Below, piece after piece: positions 52,987 through 62,786 of a DNA stretch of 64,000 bases (its first letter is position 1; each line of letters starts with the position of its first letter). The notes beneath the pieces were generated by a model. That model was not told the origin of the DNA, did not search any database, and was given only the letters and a program-made list of their open reading frames with translations. The position numbers and the translations under genes were made by a program. Origin of the DNA: Marinibacterium anthonyi (GTDB lineage Bacteria; Pseudomonadota; Alphaproteobacteria; Rhodobacterales; Rhodobacteraceae); the NCBI GenBank assembly GCA_003217735.2, contig CP031585.1:5473501-5537500 (forward strand), given 5' to 3'.

Positions 52987-54255
52987 CTACCCGTTCCGCC
53001 GCAAGATCGATCCGGCAAGGTAGAGCGACCCACAGATCAGAATCCGTTCCGCGCTTTCTCCGGCCAGCGCCACGGCCTCTTCCGTCGTTGCCGCGACTTC
53101 GGCGTTCATGCCAACGGCGCGGGCGCGTTCGGCCAGGACCTCGGGGTCCAGGCCATTTGGTTCCCCGGGAATCGGCACCGCGATCAGGCGGTCGGTGATC
53201 CGGGCCAGTGGCGACAGGAAACCGCTGCAATCCTTGGTGTTCATCATGCCCGTGATCAGTACCGTCGGGCGCGGCGACAGCCCGCCCAGCAGATCGGCCA
53301 ACGCGATGCCCGCCGCGGGATTATGGCCGCCGTCAAGCCAGAGCTCGCGATTACCGGCCGCCTCGACCAGCGGTCCGGTCGTCAGGCGTTGCATCCGGGC
53401 GGGCCAGGAGACGTTTTCCATCGCGGCGATGGCGCCGGTTTCGTCCACGCCCAGGGTCCGCAACACGCTCAGCGCGGCGCCGGCGTTGTCGTATTGGTGA
53501 CGACCGCGAAGGGCCGGCAGGGGCAGGTCCAGCAGACCGGTTTCATCCTGATAGACCAGACGGCCGCGTTCTTCCGCAACCTGCCAGTGTTCGCCCTGCA
53601 CCAGCAAAGGCGCGCCGGCGCGGGCGGCGACGCGTTCGATGACCTCCATCGCGCGGGGATCCTGGCGGCTGACCACGCAGGGGACGCCGCGCTTGATGAT
53701 CCCGGCCTTTTCGCCCGCGATGGCCTCGATCGTGTCACCCAGGAATTGTTCGTGATCCATCGACACCGGCGTGATCACCGTGGCCACCGGATCGTCGACC
53801 ACGTTGGTCGCATCCAGGCGCCCGCCAAGGCCGACCTCCAGCAGGGTGTAATCCGCCGGCGTTTCGGCAAAGGCCAGCAGGGCGGCGCAGGTGGTGATCT
53901 CGAAATAGGTGATCTCTTCGCCGCCGTTGGCGTCGTAGCAGCGGTCCAGGGCGTCGATCAGCGCGGCTTCGGAGATCAGATCTCCGGCCAGGCGGACGCG
54001 TTCGTGGAACCGGGCGAGGTGGGGCGAGGTATAGGCATGGACGCGCTTGCCCGCCCCTTCCAATCCGGCGCGGATCATCGCCTGGGTCGATCCCTTGCCG
54101 TTGGTTCCGGCGATGTGGATCACCGGGGGCAGGCGTTTTTCCGGGTGGCCCAGCCGGGCCAGCAGGCGCCACATGCGATCCAGGGTGAGGTCGATCACCT
54201 TGGGATGCAGCGCCATCATCCGTTCCAGGATGACATCGGACCCCTGCGCGGTCAT
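52987..54255 (-). CDS. folC: Folylpolyglutamate synthase / dihydrofolate synthase
   Basis: A 422-residue Mur-ligase-like enzyme that adds L-glutamate to dihydropteroate and to folates using ATP. The P-loop is HIAGTNGKGSTQAM (50-57), followed by YTSPHLARFHERVRL, the FEITTCAALLAFAE segment, VGLGGRLDATN and WLDGGHNPAAGIAL. Length matches the family. Its start overlaps the accD stop by three to four bases, the conserved accD-folC arrangement in proteobacteria. Confidence 0.95.
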   Translation of the reverse strand: MTAQGSDVILERMMALHPKVIDLTLDRMWRLLARLGHPEKRLPPVIHIAGTNGKGSTQAMIRAGLEGAGKRVHAYTSPHLARFHERVRLAGDLISEAALIDALDRCYDANGGEEITYFEITTCAALLAFAETPADYTLLEVGLGGRLDATNVVDDPVATVITPVSMDHEQFLGDTIEAIAGEKAGIIKRGVPCVVSRQDPRAMEVIERVAARAGAPLLVQGEHWQVAEERGRLVYQDETGLLDLPLPALRGRHQYDNAGAALSVLRTLGVDETGAIAAMENVSWPARMQRLTTGPLVEAAGNRELWLDGGHNPAAGIALADLLGGLSPRPTVLITGMMNTKDCSGFLSPLARITDRLIAVPIPGEPNGLDPEVLAERARAVGMNAEVAATTEEAVALAGESAERILICGSLYLAGSILRRNG

Positions 54256-55256
54256 TCAGAAGCTTTGCCAGAAGGCTTGGCCGCCGGTTTCGTCCCCGGC
54301 TTGGCCGCCGGGTTGTCCGAGGTCTTGACGGAGGTCTCTGGCGCGGGCGCGACGTCGACCGCCAGTTCCTCGGCGTTCGGGGGCGGCAGGTCGCCCTTGA
54401 TCGCGGGCGGCAGGTTCAGCAGCATCCGGATGATGGTGATCAGCTCGTCTTTCATCTCCATCCGGTGGGTCACCCGGTCGAGCATGCCGTGATCCAGCAG
54501 GTATTCGGCGCGCTGGAACCCATCGGGCAGCTTTTCGCGGATGGTCTGTTCGATGACGCGCGGGCCGGCGAAGCAGATCAGCGCGTTGGGTTCGGCGATA
54601 TGCACGTCGCCCAGCATCGCGTAGGACGCGGTCACGCCGCCCGTGGTCGGGTGGGTGAGCACGACGATATAGGGCAGGCCCGCCTCCTTCACCATTTCCA
54701 CGGCGACGGTGGTGCGGGGCATCTGCATCAGCGACAGGATGCCTTCCTGCATCCGCGCGCCACCGGCGGCGGAAAACAGGATCAGCGGGCGCTTCAGCCG
54801 TACCGCTTCCTGGGCCGCAGCGATGATGGCGTTGCCGACATACATGCCCATCGACCCGGCCATGAAGGAAAAGTCCTGCGCGGCGGCGACGATGGGCGTG
54901 CGGCCCATTTCCCCGGTGGCGACAAGCATCGCTTCCTTCTCGCCCGTGCCCTTCTGGGCCGCGCGCATGCGGTCGGGGTATTTCTTCTGGTCGCGGAAAT
55001 GCAGTGGGTCGGCCTTGGGCTCGGGCACCGCGACTTCGGTAAAGACGCCACCGTCGAACAGGGCCGCGAACCGATCCCTTGGCGTCAGCGCCATGTGATG
55101 GTTGCAGTTCGTGCAGACGTTCAGGTTGTCCGACAGTTCCCTGTGGAACAGCATCGTTCCGCAGTTACTGCATTTCTGCCACAGATTCTCGGGCGTCTCG
55201 CGGCGCGAGAAGATCGAGTTGATCCGCGGACGGACAAAGTTGTTGATCCAGTTCAT
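54252..55256 (-). CDS. accD: Acetyl-CoA carboxylase carboxyltransferase, beta subunit
   Basis: A 334-residue subunit that, with AccA, transfers CO2 from biotin to acetyl-CoA in fatty acid synthesis. The N-terminal zinc ribbon is Cys29/Cys32 (CSNC) and Cys48/Cys51 (CTNC); the crotonase-like core has MAGSMGMYVGNAI, SAAGGARMQEG, LTHPTTGGVTAS and FAGPRVIEQTI. The last 40 residues are a low-complexity tail of Ala, Lys, Pro and Ser (TKPAAKPSGKASE) beyond the conserved domain. folC follows with an overlapping start. Confidence 0.96.
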   Translation of the reverse strand: MNWINNFVRPRINSIFSRRETPENLWQKCSNCGTMLFHRELSDNLNVCTNCNHHMALTPRDRFAALFDGGVFTEVAVPEPKADPLHFRDQKKYPDRMRAAQKGTGEKEAMLVATGEMGRTPIVAAAQDFSFMAGSMGMYVGNAIIAAAQEAVRLKRPLILFSAAGGARMQEGILSLMQMPRTTVAVEMVKEAGLPYIVVLTHPTTGGVTASYAMLGDVHIAEPNALICFAGPRVIEQTIREKLPDGFQRAEYLLDHGMLDRVTHRMEMKDELITIIRMLLNLPPAIKGDLPPPNAEELAVDVAPAPETSVKTSDNPAAKPGTKPAAKPSGKASE

Positions 55257-55316: not shown

Positions 55317-56216
55317 TCAACGCCGCAAGGCAAGTCGCGCAACCAGCCAGCAAACCAGCATCGACGCAAAGTCAACCGGGAGCCAGGCGCGCACCAGCGC
55401 GGGGTCCACAGCCGCCGCCGGGCTGACGAAAAGCGCCAGGCCATTCATGCTGTCGGTGACCGAAATGACCAGAAGCGCGGTGAAGTTGTTGGCGAAATGC
55501 ACCGCGATGGCGGGGCCCAGCGTGCCGGCCCGCGCGGTCAGATCCGCCATGAGGATGCCGAAGACCGCCGCCCAGACGGCGACCAGCAGCGCATTTTCGC
55601 CCGCCTCGGAGGGCACGTAATGGCCGGCGGCAAAGATCAGCGACGGCACGCCGATCCAGATCCACGGAGACCGGAACCGGGCGGCCAGTTGCTGCTGGAG
55701 GTAGCCCCGAAAGAGGATTTCCTCGGTCGAGACCTGGATCAGCAGGGCCACAAGCGACAGCGGCAGAAGGGCGATCCACCGGCCGACAGGCATGTTCAGC
55801 GTCAGCGACAGGCCGCTGTCCCAGGGCGGCAGCACCAGCAGGGCAAGGCCCAGCCCGACCAGCAGGATCAGCACGTCGCGGAATTGGGCCCAGGCCCTGC
55901 GCAGCGGGCCGATCAGGGTCGCGGGGCCACGGCCATGCAGCAGCCGCGCCGCCAGAACCGCCCCCAGCGCGAAGAAGGAAAACGTGCCAAGCAGCATCAC
56001 CAGCGCGCCGGGCGTCGTGCCGATGTGCCCCCCGGCCGAGGCGATCTCGGTCCGCCAGAAGCCGGGCGCCAGGGTCGACAGCACAGCCGCCAGCGCCATG
56101 TTCAGCGCCAGCCCGACCCCGACGATCACCACAAGTCCGACACCCAGGCGCCAGAGTTCCGGCCGGGTGCGCGCCGGCGCAACGAAATCCCCAAGGGCGG
56201 CCCAGCGGGACGCCAT
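55317..56216 (-). CDS. CPBP family intramembrane metalloprotease
   Basis: A 299-residue protein with about eight membrane helices and the three CPBP (Abi/CAAX-processing-like) motifs: STEEILFRGYL (Glu165, Glu166, Arg170), FAAGHYVP (His199) and AIAVHFANNF (His240, Asn244). These form the membrane active site of the Rce1-like glutamic/metal protease fold, so it is probably active. It starts one base after the stop of the large ABC/cyclic-nucleotide gene, so the two are translated from one mRNA. Its substrate is unknown; a role linked to the upstream protein is inferred from position only. Confidence 0.88.
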   Translation of the reverse strand: MASRWAALGDFVAPARTRPELWRLGVGLVVIVGVGLALNMALAAVLSTLAPGFWRTEIASAGGHIGTTPGALVMLLGTFSFFALGAVLAARLLHGRGPATLIGPLRRAWAQFRDVLILLVGLGLALLVLPPWDSGLSLTLNMPVGRWIALLPLSLVALLIQVSTEEILFRGYLQQQLAARFRSPWIWIGVPSLIFAAGHYVPSEAGENALLVAVWAAVFGILMADLTARAGTLGPAIAVHFANNFTALLVISVTDSMNGLALFVSPAAAVDPALVRAWLPVDFASMLVCWLVARLALRR

Positions 56217-56217
56217 G

Positions 56218-59200
56218 TCAGGCGTTTTCCTTGCTTGTGATCTCGTCAAAGGCCTCGCCGTCCTCTTCCGCGGTGATCCGTTTCATGTCCATCCCGCGTT
56301 TCTCGAGGAACCCGACAACGGCCTGAAGGTGGCCCGCGACGGTTTCCAGAAGGGCGACGGCCACCGTCGCATCGGCTTCGATCACGTCGCGGAATTCCTC
56401 GGCGCCGATGCGCAGGAAGCGGGTCTTCTCGACGGCAACCAGGTCCATCGTCCGGGGTTCCTTCATGATGACCGAAAGATCCCCGATCAGGCGGCCGGGT
56501 TCGACCACGGTGATCGGCTTGTCCCCGGGTTCGGCATTGGCCCATCGCAGTTCGGCCCGGCCCGACAGGCACAGATAGACCGCATCCGACGGCTGCCCGG
56601 CGCGAAAGATCACCTGGTCGGTGCGTGCCGAATACCAGCGGGCGGAAAACGCCAGCAGGCGCTGGTTGCGGGCATCCAGCCGCGAAAAAAGCTCTGTCGC
56701 GGAGATGGCGCGCAGCTTGTGGCGGAATTCCTCGGTGCCTTCCGACCCGGAGCCGGTCACCGACACTTCGGCGCCGTCGATCCGACCGTCCTTCAGTTCG
56801 ATCAGCATGTCGTATTCGGACGGGTTGCGGAACTTGCGTTCCATGAAGATCGTCGTGGTGTCGGGCAGCAGTTCGCGCAGGTTGTTGCGCGCCGCCGCCC
56901 GGGCCGCCGAATCATGGCTTTCCAGCACCCGGTCAAAGATCAGCAGGTCGGGCCGCTTCAGCGCCGCCCGGCTGAAGGCCGCGCGTTCGTGCAGCGTCTT
57001 GGGCAGGTTGGCGCCGCCCATGCCGGTGTGCAGGTCAAAGATCAGCCGGGCGATCCGCCAGCGCAGTCCTTCGTCCGACAGCAATTCGGCCACCACGTCC
57101 TCGACATCGTCGGCGCGGGCGCCGGCGTGCAGGGAAATCCGCCCGTAAAGCGCGTTTTCCAGCACCGTCAGGCGCGGCAGGTAGGTTTCCGGCGATACCG
57201 GCACGAACAGCTTCGCGCTCATCCTGCGCAGGGTCTCGCGGTGGGATTTGCGGACCTCGACGATGCGTTTCTGCAGTCGTTCGGGAAAGCCCGCGCCGAT
57301 CTGTTCGGCGGTCAGGGTGAAGGGGACGGTCATCAGCAGCAGCTGTTCGTCCCCGTCCAGCCCGTCATCGCCGCGCACCCGGCGCTTGGACACGATTTCG
57401 ACCAGGCGGCGGAACTGGTCCGGATCCAGCCCGACGCGGCGGAACAGCGGGTGATCGGTGCCGTCATGGCCGAAGGTGTGCAGCAGCGTGTCGACCACCG
57501 ACTGCCCGATGTTGAGCGCCTGCAGGCTGAGCCCTTCGCTTTCGATCAGGTCGCGGAACATCCGCGCCATTTCGATCCCGTTGGACGAAATCGGCGACCG
57601 GGGCGAGGCGAACAGCAGGTTGCCCGCCAACGGGACGGCCGGGTTGAACAGGTCCGGATCGAAGCGGAAGACGATGTCGTCCAGCCCCTTGTCGGCGATG
57701 CGTTCCTGAACCGTGTCGCGCAGGCCGACGATGGCGCTGGCCAGGTCGCGGTGCACCTCGGGCGAAATCCTCAGCTGCAGGGCGCGTCGAAAGATTTCCT
57801 CGTCCTGGCCGATGGCCTGGATCAGGCGGAACCACCAGCTGCCGACGTCGTCCCGGTCGGTATAGCCGCCGATGGAGGGATCGAACCAGTCGGCATCCAC
57901 CGGATCGGGGCAATTGCCGGATCGCCGCGCCTCGACCCCGGCGCGGCTTTTGGCCCAGTCGGAATCCTTCGGGTCGCCGGAATGCATCGAAAAGGGCATC
58001 AGCAGGTTCTGCCCCAGCGTGCCGTCGAACAGGTAGGGTTGCGAATGGGCGTAACCGATGCGCGCCGCGATCACCGCCTGGTGGACGGTGGACAGGTCGC
58101 GCCCGCCGATCTCGACCCGGCCACGTGTCGGCATGACCTCACGCGTCAGAAGCCCGGCCAGCGCGGCGCATTCGGCCGCGTTACCGCCCTGGATCGCCAG
58201 CCGGCTGCCGGCGGGGATGTCCAGCGAGATGTCCTCGAGCACGAGGTTGCCGTCCTCGTCCGTGACGGTGACGTCCTTGATCGAAATGTCGCCCTTCAGG
58301 CGCGGGATCTCGTCGGGGATGTTGTCGATCAGGCGTTCGTCGATCATCGACTTGGGCGCAAAGCGATCCATGACGATGGTCCAGCGCAGCGACATGTCCT
58401 GCACCTGGTTGTAGTAATCCAGCAGCTCTTTCCAGGGCGCGGCGATGTCCTTGTAGGCCGCCAGCCCCGCCACCAGCGCGCCGACGCTGATCTGGCCGTT
58501 GATCGCCAGGTAGCCGCCGACGAGGTAGAAGAAGAACGGCGTAAGCTGGGTGATCAGGTTGTTGAGGAACTTCATGAAGAACTTCTTCTGGTAGATCTTG
58601 AAGCGGATCTCGAAGATCCGCCCCAGACGATCCGTCAGAAGCGCGCTGCGGAAGCGCCAGCCGCCATTGGCCCGCAGGTCCGAGATGCCCGCCGCCGTTT
58701 CGCCGATTTCCGACGACAGGTGGCGGATCTCGACGATGCGGTCCTTGTTCAGCAGGTTGATCTGGCGCTGCAGCATCGGGATCAGCCAGGCCTGCAGCGG
58801 GATCAGCGCTATGGCGGCCAGCCCGAACCAGACGCTTTGCATGAACAGGAACGCGACGATGGTCAGCATCTGGCCGGCCTGGAACACCGGCTGGGCCACA
58901 GCATCGCCCATCAGCCCGCCCATCGGCTCGGCCTCGGAGGTGATCATCGACACCAGTTCGCCCTGGCTGGTGGTGCGGAAATAGGGCGCCGGAAAGCGCA
59001 TCATCCGGTCCAGCAACTGAAAGCGCAGCCGGCGCAACATGCGTTCCGACACGGTGCCCTTGTAGGTGTTGATCCGCATCTTGAAGACGCCCGAAGCCAG
59101 GACGGCGGCCAGGAACAGCACGCAGAGAAACACCAGGTATTCGACCTGGGTCAGCCGGATCCCCCAGACCGAGATCGTGGAATTCACCGCGCCGATGGCG

Positions 59201-59331
59201 TCGTTGATGATCTTCTTCGGCAACTCGAGAGAGATGTAGAGGAAGGGGAATGACAGCACCGTGAGGGCCAGCAGAATCAGCTGGTCGCGCTTGGAATAGC
59301 GCCAGATGAAGGCGAAAAGTGTACGGTCCAT
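56218..59331 (-). CDS. ABC-exporter-like protein with degenerate NBD and cyclic-nucleotide-binding domain
   Basis: A 1,037-residue membrane protein. Residues 1-325 look like an ABC exporter membrane domain (helices near 18-36, 62-84, 150-186, 255-275, 280-297). An ABC-like domain follows but is dead by sequence: the Walker A position is IQGGNAAECAALAG (381-392) with no GKS/T; the signature position reads NLPKTLHERAAFSRA instead of LSGGQ; Walker B is DLLIFDRV, with Arg for the catalytic Glu; and the H-loop is IFMERKF. A unique insertion of about 250 residues (about 450-705) splits it. Residues 880-1010 are a CRP-like cNMP fold (VIFRAGQPSDAVYLCLSGRA, PGRLIGDLSVIMKEPRTMDL). ATG 59331 lacks a clear ribosome site. 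CPBP protease follows. Confidence 0.88.
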   Translation of the reverse strand: MDRTLFAFIWRYSKRDQLILLALTVLSFPFLYISLELPKKIINDAIGAVNSTISVWGIRLTQVEYLVFLCVLFLAAVLASGVFKMRINTYKGTVSERMLRRLRFQLLDRMMRFPAPYFRTTSQGELVSMITSEAEPMGGLMGDAVAQPVFQAGQMLTIVAFLFMQSVWFGLAAIALIPLQAWLIPMLQRQINLLNKDRIVEIRHLSSEIGETAAGISDLRANGGWRFRSALLTDRLGRIFEIRFKIYQKKFFMKFLNNLITQLTPFFFYLVGGYLAINGQISVGALVAGLAAYKDIAAPWKELLDYYNQVQDMSLRWTIVMDRFAPKSMIDERLIDNIPDEIPRLKGDISIKDVTVTDEDGNLVLEDISLDIPAGSRLAIQGGNAAECAALAGLLTREVMPTRGRVEIGGRDLSTVHQAVIAARIGYAHSQPYLFDGTLGQNLLMPFSMHSGDPKDSDWAKSRAGVEARRSGNCPDPVDADWFDPSIGGYTDRDDVGSWWFRLIQAIGQDEEIFRRALQLRISPEVHRDLASAIVGLRDTVQERIADKGLDDIVFRFDPDLFNPAVPLAGNLLFASPRSPISSNGIEMARMFRDLIESEGLSLQALNIGQSVVDTLLHTFGHDGTDHPLFRRVGLDPDQFRRLVEIVSKRRVRGDDGLDGDEQLLLMTVPFTLTAEQIGAGFPERLQKRIVEVRKSHRETLRRMSAKLFVPVSPETYLPRLTVLENALYGRISLHAGARADDVEDVVAELLSDEGLRWRIARLIFDLHTGMGGANLPKTLHERAAFSRAALKRPDLLIFDRVLESHDSAARAAARNNLRELLPDTTTIFMERKFRNPSEYDMLIELKDGRIDGAEVSVTGSGSEGTEEFRHKLRAISATELFSRLDARNQRLLAFSARWYSARTDQVIFRAGQPSDAVYLCLSGRAELRWANAEPGDKPITVVEPGRLIGDLSVIMKEPRTMDLVAVEKTRFLRIGAEEFRDVIEADATVAVALLETVAGHLQAVVGFLEKRGMDMKRITAEEDGEAFDEITSKENA

Positions 59332-59527: not shown

Positions 59528-61291
59528 ATGCTGAAACGAACGTTCGACAAGTCCAGATTGCCCAGCCGTCATGTGACCGAAGGCCCCGAGCGCGCGCCGC
59601 ACCGGTCGTACCTGTACGCCATGGGCCTGTCCGACACCGAGATACACCAGCCCCTGGTCGGCGTCGCCACCTGCTGGAACGAGGCCGCGCCCTGCAACAT
59701 CTCGCTGAGCCGCCAGGCCCAGGCGGTGAAGCTGGGGGTGAAGGCGGCCAGCGGCACGCCGCGCGAATTCACCACCATCACCGTGACCGACGGCATCGCC
59801 ATGGGCCATGAAGGCATGCGGTCGTCGCTGGCTTCGCGCGAGGCGATCGCGGATACGGTGGAACTGACGATGCGCGGCCATTGCTATGACGCCATCGTGG
59901 GCCTTGCCGGCTGCGACAAGTCGCTGCCGGGCATGATGATGGCCATGGTGCGCCTGAACGTGCCGTCGGTCTTCATCTACGGCGGGTCCATCTTGCCGGG
60001 CAAGGCGCCCCAGGTCGACGAGATTCCCGAAGATTTCCGCACCCGCGACCTGACGGTGCAGGACATGTTCGAAGCCGTGGGACGCCATCAGAACCATGAA
60101 TTGTCCGACGCCGCGCTGGACATGCTGGAACGGGTCGCCTGCCCGTCGGCAGGGGCCTGCGGTGGCCAGTTCACCGCCAACACCATGGCCTGCGTGTCCG
60201 AGGCGATCGGGCTGGCGCTGATGAATTCGTCGGGCATGCCCGCGCCTTACGAATCGCGCGACCAATACGCCGAGGCGTCCGGCCAGGCGGTCATGGACCT
60301 GATCGAAAAGAACATCCGCGCCCGTGACGTGGTGACCCTGAAGTCGCTGGAAAACGCCGCGCGCGTCGTCGCCTGCACCGGCGGGTCGACCAATGCGGGC
60401 CTGCACCTGCCGGCCATCGCGCACGAGGCCGGGATCGATTTCTTCCTGGACGACGTCTGCGAGATCTTCCGCGACACGCCCTATTTCGTAGACCTGAAGC
60501 CGGGCGGCCAATACGTGGCCAAGGACCTGTACGACGCGGGCGGCATCCCGGTGGTGATGAAGGAACTGCGCAAGGCCGGCCTGATCCACGAAGACTGCAT
60601 GACCGCTACGGGCCGCACCATCGGCGACGAACTTGACCGGATCACCCGCAAGGCCGACGGTCGCGTGATCTATCCGATCGACACGCCGCTGACCAAAACG
60701 GGGGGGGTCGTCGGGCTCAAGGGCAACCTGGCACCCGAAGGGGCCATCGTGAAGGTCGCGGGGATCGAACCGCAACACCAGCGCTTTGTCGGCCCGGCGC
60801 GGGTCTTCGAATGCGAGGAAGACGCGTTCGAGGCCGTCAAGGCGCGCACCTACAAGGAAGGCGACGTGATCGTCATCCGCAACGAAGGCCCCGCCGGCGG
60901 TCCGGGGATGCGCGAGATGCTGGCGACCACGGCCGCCCTGTCGGGCCAGGGCATGGGCAAGAAGGTCGCCTTGATCACCGACGGGCGGTTCTCGGGCGCG
61001 ACCCGGGGATTCTGCGTCGGCCATGTCGGGCCGGAATCCGCGCATGGCGGGCCGATCGCCTTGCTGAAGGACGGCGACGTGATCACCATCGACGCCATTA
61101 CGGGCGACCTGTCGGTCAACCTGACCGAAGACGAGCTTGCTGAACGCAAAGAGAACTGGAAAGGCCCACGCACCACGAATTACGCGTCGGGCGCCCTGTG
61201 GAAATATGCCCAGCTGGTGGGCTCTACCTACAAGGGCGCGGTGACGCATCCCGGTGCGCAGGCCGAAACGCATGACTACATGGACCTTTAA
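59528..61291 (+). CDS. ilvD: Dihydroxy-acid dehydratase
   Basis: A 587-residue iron-sulfur enzyme of branched-chain amino acid synthesis that dehydrates 2,3-dihydroxy-isovalerate and -methylvalerate. Cluster cysteines are Cys56 (TCWNEAAPCN), Cys129 (GLAGCDKSLPGMMMA) and Cys211 (CPSAGACGGQFTANTM). The VTDGIAMGHEGMRSSLASRE and GRFSGATRGFCVGHVGPE signatures identify it. I favour IlvD over related sugar-acid dehydratases by overall length and N-terminus, but a sugar-acid role cannot be fully excluded. GGGGGAGG precedes ATG 59528. It is divergent from the ABC/cNMP gene and overlaps the next gene. Confidence 0.93.
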   Translation: MLKRTFDKSRLPSRHVTEGPERAPHRSYLYAMGLSDTEIHQPLVGVATCWNEAAPCNISLSRQAQAVKLGVKAASGTPREFTTITVTDGIAMGHEGMRSSLASREAIADTVELTMRGHCYDAIVGLAGCDKSLPGMMMAMVRLNVPSVFIYGGSILPGKAPQVDEIPEDFRTRDLTVQDMFEAVGRHQNHELSDAALDMLERVACPSAGACGGQFTANTMACVSEAIGLALMNSSGMPAPYESRDQYAEASGQAVMDLIEKNIRARDVVTLKSLENAARVVACTGGSTNAGLHLPAIAHEAGIDFFLDDVCEIFRDTPYFVDLKPGGQYVAKDLYDAGGIPVVMKELRKAGLIHEDCMTATGRTIGDELDRITRKADGRVIYPIDTPLTKTGGVVGLKGNLAPEGAIVKVAGIEPQHQRFVGPARVFECEEDAFEAVKARTYKEGDVIVIRNEGPAGGPGMREMLATTAALSGQGMGKKVALITDGRFSGATRGFCVGHVGPESAHGGPIALLKDGDVITIDAITGDLSVNLTEDELAERKENWKGPRTTNYASGALWKYAQLVGSTYKGAVTHPGAQAETHDYMDL

Positions 61292-61904
61292 GGCAATCCT
61301 GGCCGGTCTGGCGCTGATCGTCCTGGCCGGCTGTACCGAAGATTTCGCCACCCTGGGCAAGACCGGGGCCGGCAACCAGAATACCACGGTGGTGATGGGC
61401 GGCAGACGTGTGGTGCTGCGGGCACCGCCTGGCTTTTGCATCGACCCCGCGTCGGTCACCAAGTCGGGCCGCGACGGCTTTGCCATGCTGGCCCGCTGCA
61501 ACCGGCTGTCGCCGGAAACCGCCATCGCGACGCTGTCGGGGCAAAGCCCGGCCGTGGTCACCGTCAGCACCAAGCCCTGGACGCTGGGCGATCAGCCGAT
61601 CACCGCCACGACCATCGCCGACGCCTATCCGCAGGGCATGGTGATCGAACAGCGCAACGGCCCCGTGGTGCCCATGGTCAAGGCGCGCGGCGGCGCGCCG
61701 GAGCGCAGCGGCCTTGGCAAGGTCCACTGGCGCAGCGCCTTCGTGGTCAATGACCAGCTGGTCGTGCTGGGCCTCTTCGCGCCGGAAAACAGCCGCGCGG
61801 TGGGATCCACCGGCGCTTCGCTTCTCGGCCAGCTGGCGCAGCGCACGATGTCGGCCAGTCGCCAGATTGCTGTGCCGATCGCCGCAACCGCGGCGAAAGA
61901 ATGA
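61272..61904 (+). CDS. Putative lipoprotein
   Basis: A 210-residue exported protein. MTTWTFKAILAGLALIVLAG precedes Cys, giving the lipobox LAGC, so it is probably a lipid-anchored periplasmic protein. The mature part is TEDFATLGKTGAGNQNTTVV and a beta-rich domain. No family was recognised. Its ATG lies 20 bases inside ilvD, in another frame, so translation is coupled to ilvD. Confidence 0.8.
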   Translation: MTTWTFKAILAGLALIVLAGCTEDFATLGKTGAGNQNTTVVMGGRRVVLRAPPGFCIDPASVTKSGRDGFAMLARCNRLSPETAIATLSGQSPAVVTVSTKPWTLGDQPITATTIADAYPQGMVIEQRNGPVVPMVKARGGAPERSGLGKVHWRSAFVVNDQLVVLGLFAPENSRAVGSTGASLLGQLAQRTMSASRQIAVPIAATAAKE

Positions 61905-62024: not shown

Positions 62025-62786
62025 ATGGGCAGTTATCTTGATCGCGCACGCTTTTTGCGGGGCATCCGGCGCTGGCGCCGGCTGGCCCGGCTGGCCGAAA
62101 GCACCGATCTTGCGGACCTGCGCGCCCAGCGAAACCAGGCGCGCGAGCTCCGCCATCACCTGGACCGGCTGATCCACGTGGCCGACGGGCGCCTGGCGCT
62201 GCCCGCCATCGGCACCAGCGCCTTCCCCCGCCCCCACGGCACCGACTGGGCCTGGCGGCCCGAGGCTTGGCGCGGCCCGCTGGGCCGGATGGGCCTGGCG
62301 GCGGTGCCCACAAAGGCACAGATCGGCCAGGAACTGACGGTTTTCCACGACTGCACCCATTCCGAACTGACCCTGCGCCAGCTGCGCAACCGGCGCGAGG
62401 AAGACCTTGCGCCCTTTGCCCTGCGCATGGATGTCTTCCGGTTCGACGGGTCCTTCCTGTCGCTGGTGCTGGACCTGCCGCAGGCCGCCGTTCAGGGGCT
62501 GACGCGCGACCACCTGGTCCGCCTGGCGACGCTGGTCGAGACCGAAAAGCCGATCGAGATCTTTGCCCGGCTGAACGTCCAGCACGGGCCCAACACCGAA
62601 CAGATCGTGCGGGAACTGCCGCTGAACCAGAAAGAGGTCGTGGTTGAATTCGACCTGGCCTATTCCGAACTGAACGAAAAGCGCGTCGAACGGGCCTGGA
62701 TCGACCTGATCTTCGAAGGCCCCGAGATGAACCAGGTGGTTCTGCGCGACCTGACCCTGGCCCGGCTGCCCCGGGCCGCGCTTTAG
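62025..62786 (+). CDS. DUF6478 family protein
   Basis: A 253-residue cytoplasmic protein found in Rhodobacterales. It opens with a basic helix (MGSYLDRARFLRGIRRWRRL), then has DGRLALPAIGTSAFPRPHGT, WAWRPEAWRGPLG, FHDCTHSELTLRQLRNRRE and a C-terminal beta-rich half ending FEGPEMNQVVLRDLTLARLP. Function unknown. A GGGACGCGGG stretch precedes ATG 62025. A small partner gene follows 17 bases later. Confidence 0.82.
   Translation: MGSYLDRARFLRGIRRWRRLARLAESTDLADLRAQRNQARELRHHLDRLIHVADGRLALPAIGTSAFPRPHGTDWAWRPEAWRGPLGRMGLAAVPTKAQIGQELTVFHDCTHSELTLRQLRNRREEDLAPFALRMDVFRFDGSFLSLVLDLPQAAVQGLTRDHLVRLATLVETEKPIEIFARLNVQHGPNTEQIVRELPLNQKEVVVEFDLAYSELNEKRVERAWIDLIFEGPEMNQVVLRDLTLARLPRAAL

Follow-up and report, generated by a model that had tools for sequence, protein, structure and literature searches.

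SUR- and CFTR-type proteins are not pumps and use the ATP-binding cassette (ABC) fold as a receptor or a channel. In this study, we describe protein A (P0001), an ABC-exporter-like protein with a degenerate nucleotide-binding domain (NBD) and a C-terminal cyclic-nucleotide-binding domain (CNBD), which is encoded in a 64,000-nucleotide stretch of the Marinibacterium anthonyi genome (contig CP031585.1, positions 5,473,501 to 5,537,500; the window below) directly in front of the gene of a CPBP/Rce1-like intramembrane protease (P0002, CPBP below). According to PMC7756269, ABCC7 and ABCC9 bind ATP at both sites, and heterodimeric ABC exporters have one degenerate site. HetC of Nostoc is an ABC exporter that needs its CNBD for function, and this CNBD bound ppGpp and did not detectably bind cAMP (PMC10986499).

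A resembles HetC in combining an ABC-exporter architecture with a CNBD; it differs in that HetC has an N-terminal CNBD, a C39 peptidase domain and an essential ATPase Glu (PMC10986499), whereas A has no peptidase and no catalytic Glu, and a Pfam scan of A at E up to 1 contained no C39 peptidase domain. From the type IV exporters TmrAB, TM287/288, PCAT1, and MsbA, A is set apart by a large insertion and by the CNBD. A and its paralog B, a second copy in the same genome, are both devoid of a canonical ATPase motif, in contrast to the single degenerate site of heterodimeric exporters; likewise, SUR/CFTR proteins are described as binding ATP, while the residues for ordinary hydrolysis are missing in A (PMC7756269).

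Judged by sequence, A is almost certainly incapable of the usual ATP hydrolysis. The reading that we favor, tentatively and at somewhat less than even confidence, is that A may be an ATP-hydrolysis-independent pseudo-exporter with a fused CNBD which, together with B, would be part of a glycan-linked family, where the conserved glycan-synthesis gene set comprises GT28-like and GT4 glycosyltransferases, a histidine phosphatase, and a methyltransferase.

Motif state, conservation, and domains of protein A

The open reading frame of A, on the minus strand, translates into 1,037 residues and a stop codon, and the translation contains the degenerate Walker A, signature, and catalytic Glu motifs quoted in a preliminary description of this locus. 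Pfam detected ABC_membrane at residues 54-290 (70 bits), a partial ABC_tran at 365-455 (36 bits), and cNMP_binding at 903-986 (55.3 bits against a cut-off of 27.5), the last of which corresponds to the CRP-like domain proposed in that description. A has the ABC_membrane domain and exporter fold of type IV exporters together with a complete NBD fold. The fold matches of its AlphaFold2 (AF2) model (predicted local distance difference test, pLDDT, 87.9; predicted template modelling score, pTM, 0.76) were filled by ABC exporters, with SUR2 structures among them, and were uninformative on the insertion and the CNBD. A scored below the curated NCBIfam cut-offs of MsbA and other named exporter equivalogs in all of the best 25 of 82 matched families, the highest being TIGR02203 with 132 bits against 602.

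The P-loop Lys position is occupied by R in 81 of the 82 A rows of the family alignment and by C in A of the window, and the catalytic Glu, signature Gln, and H-loop His are present in none of the 82, the window's A included; all four residues are also absent from the seven rows grouped as B. These losses in all A-type rows agree with the earlier view that the ABC part is unfit as an ordinary ATP-driven pump, and no close homolog among the 82 keeps intact ATPase motifs, so that neither a sequence error nor a single-strain decay accounts for the pattern.

A is maintained by purifying selection, because dN (nonsynonymous divergence) is below dS (synonymous divergence) over the protein and in each domain when A is compared with its counterpart in Marinibacterium profundimaris (L046, whose contig is also that of G002, a genome listed as belonging to this genus). 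By a simple counting method applied to this single pair, dN/dS was 0.142/0.479 for the whole protein, 0.075/0.434 for the membrane domain, and 0.186/0.598 for the CNBD. Constraint on A is shifted away from the ATPase core: over 29 rows, the membrane domain had a mean pairwise identity of 0.783, against 0.612 for the NBD core and 0.540 for the insertion, while a canonical exporter, TIGR02204, showed the opposite direction, its NBD (0.748) being more conserved than its membrane domain (0.675; 18 same-family rows, after a motif filter passed by 26 of 28 loci), the two row sets coming from related genomes that are not the same throughout. TIGR02204 was taken as the control instead of the exporter L005, which is present in just 3 of 41 genomes. 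A pseudogene or sequencing error was also considered for A and was ruled out by the full-length open reading frames, dN below dS, and motif losses fixed over many genera.

The insertion, previously described as unique and about 250 residues long, is instead about 290 residues long and shared class-wide, marking an alphaproteobacterial family found in 131 of 385 genomes. Profile comparison of the class-wide rows showed that the segment after the Q-loop is tripled, each copy having a conserved Asn (residues 442, 571, and 726 of A). The match probability was 97% between copies 2 and 3 (E 2e-11), 91% between copies 1 and 3 (E 1e-6), and 93%, over 23 columns only, between copies 1 and 2; control segments without shared columns stayed below 2%, except for one insertion segment that contains the repeated helix and reached 58% and 17% against copies 1 and 3, respectively. 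DSSP assigned a strand-helix-strand-helix-helix order to copies 2 and 3 in the model of A. A search with the insertion recovered relatives across the genomes of the class and no convincing sequence relative in PDB (one chance-level match, E 0.56) or Pfam (two weak single-member matches). No paper on this ABC family was among the matches listed in searches of the open-licence PMC literature, which is weak evidence of novelty.

In the class-wide rows (A2 alignment), Asp or Glu stands in place of the Ser/Thr that follows the P-loop Lys position in 41 of 52 rows; among these 41, a non-acidic Walker B position is seen in 36 (Fisher p = 0.025, by row). This possible swap of the Mg-site acid between Walker A and Walker B was not significant in a sign test on the tree (median p 0.5), and may serve as a lead.

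When neighboring genes also occur as fusions, joint function is classically suspected, and the consensus of the CNBD phosphate-binding cassette has Glu and Arg. Across the class, 40 loci were fetched with their flanks, four of them (L196-L199) from the window's own family, and all counts for them give presence within the fetched stretch; in L187, L191, L241-L243, L026, and L029, another ABC gene was automatically chosen as the target and gene offsets are misleading. A CNBD is found in 39 of the 40 loci, fused in six and otherwise mostly encoded by a separate gene adjoining the ABC gene. The fusions outside the roseobacter clade are those of L141 (seen by alignment only), L169 (by Pfam), and L216, and the fusion state changed at least four times on the membrane-domain tree. 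Of 36 separate CNBDs, 35 retain both cassette residues, as do six of the seven B rows. The link between the ABC part and the CNBD is real and extends to distant relatives, where the CNBD is a neighboring gene.

Glycosyltransferase genes and the paralog B

GT28-like and GT4 genes are each present in 30 of the 40 class-wide loci, a histidine phosphatase gene in 27, and a methyltransferase gene in 21, as identified by Pfam and NCBIfam runs on examples. The glycosyltransferase genes often, if not in every locus, occur as two of each type, mostly divergent and upstream of the ABC gene, and they precede the ABC and CNBD genes in three rhizobial records. On the rhizobial plasmids L241 and L242, cytochrome o oxidase genes are situated a few kb away from the family gene, the CNBD gene, and the glycosyltransferases. 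The ABC genes of the window's family have left the glycosyltransferase cluster, and the cluster persists: the order GT28-GT4-GT4-phosphatase-GT28 (Pfam run on one locus) occurs in 8 of 10 GT28-centered loci (L300-L304, L306, L307, and L309), seven of which have a methyltransferase gene near; L308 is cut by a contig end and L305 has GT28-GT4-GT4 only. In L303, the operon is preceded by a UDP-sugar dehydrogenase gene. Judged by sequence, the weak ABC-profile matches in L300, L305, and L307 belong to ordinary ABC ATPases.

Co-occurrence was counted per genome, species kinship ignored, in 248 genomes that sample the window's family at nearly one genome for each genus, where GT28 is present in 52 of 53 genomes with the ABC family and in 5 of the 195 others. 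The ABC family was scored at E up to 1e-60 (53 genomes) and GT28 at 48% identity or more (57 genomes), with seven weaker matches (31-39%) set aside as paralogs. The genome with an ABC match and no GT28, G899, holds a membrane-domain-only relative, and the pattern was the same in 61 relatives. GT28 accompanies A in 31/31 genomes against 26/217 of the rest, and A or B in 39/39. A multicopper oxidase, included as an unrelated patchy control, was too rare to inform (8 of 248 genomes, four among the 53), so CPBP is the more useful comparison. These data make it likely that the ABC family is linked to a glycan pathway.

B is 50% identical to A and, by hand scoring, is present in 31/31 genomes with A and in eight genomes without A. 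Genomes were assigned A when a copy had high identity to P0001 or a CPBP neighbor, and B when a copy had 45-53% identity and no CPBP neighbor; some of the B copies were placed on a tree (the B-clade copy of G190 is L198). Two genomes were counted as A in spite of contig breaks, G001 (A split at contig ends) and G827 (CPBP at the end of another contig); 14 of the 53 ABC genomes were left unclassed (G010, G019, G817, G823, G841, G859, G899, G901, G905, G913, G931, G955, G966, and G979), of which G859 lacks a CPBP match and has an A-like fragment of 206 residues. A-like and B-like rows form one clade on the membrane-domain tree (100/98). Of the three full-length family copies in G190 (L197, L198, and L240), L198 falls within the B group, where its branch is long. 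In 12 of the 39 genomes assigned a B copy, the distance from B to GT28 is 2.9-40.2 kb.

Seven loci (L041:5956-7194, L244:5776-6957, L245-L248, and L042) carry a membrane-domain relative with no NBD nearby, according to tblastn, and Pfam was run on two of these relatives. Their existence is support, short of proof, for the view that the membrane part can be useful without ATP hydrolysis. Of these seven stretches, six contain a multicopper-oxidase-like match, which is partial and weak in L245-L247, and L041 and L244 resemble copper-resistance clusters.

The simplest reading of the pair would be an A:B heterodimer. We propose as a hypothesis that this heterodimer acts as a gate or scaffold: ligand binding to the CNBDs, that of B more probably than that of A, would shift the domains, which would open or close the membrane part, and the membrane part would present or pass a lipid-linked glycan intermediate without ATP hydrolysis. 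Alternatively, A:B may hold the glycosyltransferases at the membrane, again without ATP hydrolysis. CPBP would in either case be a co-expressed neighbor rather than a demonstrated partner.

Several points weigh against this proposal. In the cassette of A, Glu is replaced by Asp and Arg is kept in 82/82 rows, and binding of cAMP or cGMP by A may consequently be altered or lost. The A:B pairing rests on co-occurrence, and since the B rows are nested among the A rows (a 97/89 branch with L083, L122, and L127), A and B are not clean sisters and the order of events is unsettled. GT28 stands without an ABC match at the cut-off in five genomes (G005, G006, G797, G861, and G863), among which G006 has a membrane-only relative below the cut-off, and the GT28 figures ignore the species tree. 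Lastly, A also co-occurs with CPBP (31/31 against 141/217, p = 6e-6, kinship ignored), a comparison in which A was scored partly by CPBP linkage and the association is weaker than that with GT28.

The best-surviving rival, unlikely in our view, takes A and B as purely regulatory SUR-like receptors that gate, e.g., a DUF3307 protein and have no substrate role. A DUF3307 gene adjoins B in 27 of 31 B or B-like loci (e.g., L031:9994-11730 and L026:5397-5897), and a class III (HAMP-cyclase-like) cyclase gene is near B in 10 of 31, one of them weak and oppositely placed, with one DUF3307 and one cyclase confirmed by Pfam. However, the membrane domain is the best-conserved part of A, and the family-wide link goes to glycosyltransferases. 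This rival overlaps the pseudo-exporter reading. That A and B are still ATP-driven transporters, using unusual chemistry or an active ABC partner elsewhere, is distinctly improbable, given the loss of the catalytic Glu, signature Gln, and H-loop His in 82 A and seven B rows and the lower conservation of the NBD core of A relative to its membrane domain.

The CPBP protease and other neighbors of A

EExxxR, FxxxH, and HxxxN are motifs of CPBP proteases. In accordance with the preliminary description, the gene one base downstream of A encodes an apparently intact CPBP of 299 residues plus a stop codon, which has the Rce1-like family domain and these motifs, as do 78/78 linked CPBPs; all six NCBIfam matches of P0002, searched for the Myxosortase/MrtX equivalogs, were below cut-off. 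The coordinates of the features are listed in Table 1, where the Mur-ligase-family gene is the one we take to be folC.

Table 1. Coordinates in the window of protein A, its domains, and the neighboring genes.
Feature	Position	Strand	Basis and remarks
A (P0001), ABC-exporter-like, dead NBD, C-terminal CNBD, 1037 aa	56218..59331	-	Pfam, alignment, AF2
Membrane domain of A with type IV ABC exporter fold, residues 1-335	58327..59331	-	
Degenerate ABC domain of A, N-terminal half, residues 336-446, P-loop Lys lost	57994..58326	-	Pfam, alignment
Family-specific insertion of A, residues about 447-735	57127..57993	-	Alignment, repeats; with flanking NBD holds three Asn-centred copies
Degenerate ABC domain of A, C-terminal half, residues 736-870, signature and catalytic Glu lost	56722..57126	-	Alignment
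CNBD of A, Pfam span residues 903-986, cassette Glu->Asp, Arg kept	56374..56625	-	
CPBP/Rce1-like intramembrane protease (P0002), 299 aa	55317..56216	-	Pfam Rce1-like, motifs
accD-like carboxyl transferase beta	54252..55256	-	Pfam Carboxyl_trans, Zn_ribbon_ACC; kept in 79/80 A loci
folC-like Mur-ligase-family protein	52987..54255	-	Pfam Mur_ligase_M/C; kept in 79/80 A loci

Of 380 candidates, 80 were retained as A loci. In 78 of these, the gene after A is CPBP, the exceptions being L085 (contig edge) and L120, and accD and folC are present in 79. In the window, a single base separates the stop codon of A from the ATG of CPBP; this exact gap is not conserved, and what is kept is a tight junction, with an overlap of 1-14 bases in 60 of 78 loci when start codons are picked by script. 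Since the genes overlap, A and CPBP are likely co-expressed. L120 (Sulfitobacter sp. F26204) carries A without CPBP, and its accD starts shortly after A; two tandem CPBP genes precede accD in L229 and several other genomes.

It was proposed earlier that A is a ligand-responsive scaffold that controls CPBP or presents substrates to it, which the intact motifs, the conserved order with its frequent overlap, and the co-occurrence of A itself with CPBP would favor. We consider this very unlikely, and the proposal is unsupported by the wider comparison. CPBP-accD-folC stands at the same place in 18/18 CPBP loci fetched from genomes without A; L120 has A and lacks CPBP; and CPBP is found beside B in 0 of 31 loci and is missing from 39 of 40 class-wide loci, the exception being an A locus. 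The suggested co-occurrence check holds for A alone, scored partly by CPBP linkage as given above, and fails for the ABC family as a whole (CPBP matches in 172 of 248 genomes; 42/53 against 130/195, p = 0.09, not significant). Because CPBP-accD-folC stands without A at the same place, A was likely inserted upstream of this pre-existing group. The adjacency is weak evidence of joint function, and A is tied to the protease mainly by position, with CPBP a neighbor outside the conserved gene set of the ABC family beyond the A loci. Finally, that A and B are relics drifting to pseudogenes is barely conceivable: every catalytic motif is lost, but the reading frames are full-length, dN is below dS in every domain (one pair), and the pattern is fixed over many genera.

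Beyond ilvD, a DUF6478 gene (62025-62786) and an unassigned short gene (61254-61904) are often kept on the far side of the locus.

Implications for the ABC family

A broader and rather unlikely reading is that the class-wide family with the tripled NBD segment may have drifted from an ATP-driven flippase to a glycolipid gate or scaffold that is gated by a nucleotide second messenger and independent of hydrolysis. The class-wide members, with an acidic P-loop residue and a neutral Walker B residue, would then represent an intermediate stage, with the roseobacter A:B pair as the end stage; the membrane-only relatives would show the membrane part free of its NBD.

The tempting pairing of A with the neighboring protease was shown to rest mainly on position, and the analysis offers a function lead for several uncharacterized genes that are grouped in many Alphaproteobacteria. 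If the broader reading is true, one family would provide a natural series that begins with a near-canonical ABC exporter and ends with an exporter fold encoded by two genes and devoid of ATPase, tied to a second-messenger-type sensor and a glycan pathway; this would make it testable whether an exporter membrane domain works without ATP hydrolysis, and what replaces ATP hydrolysis.

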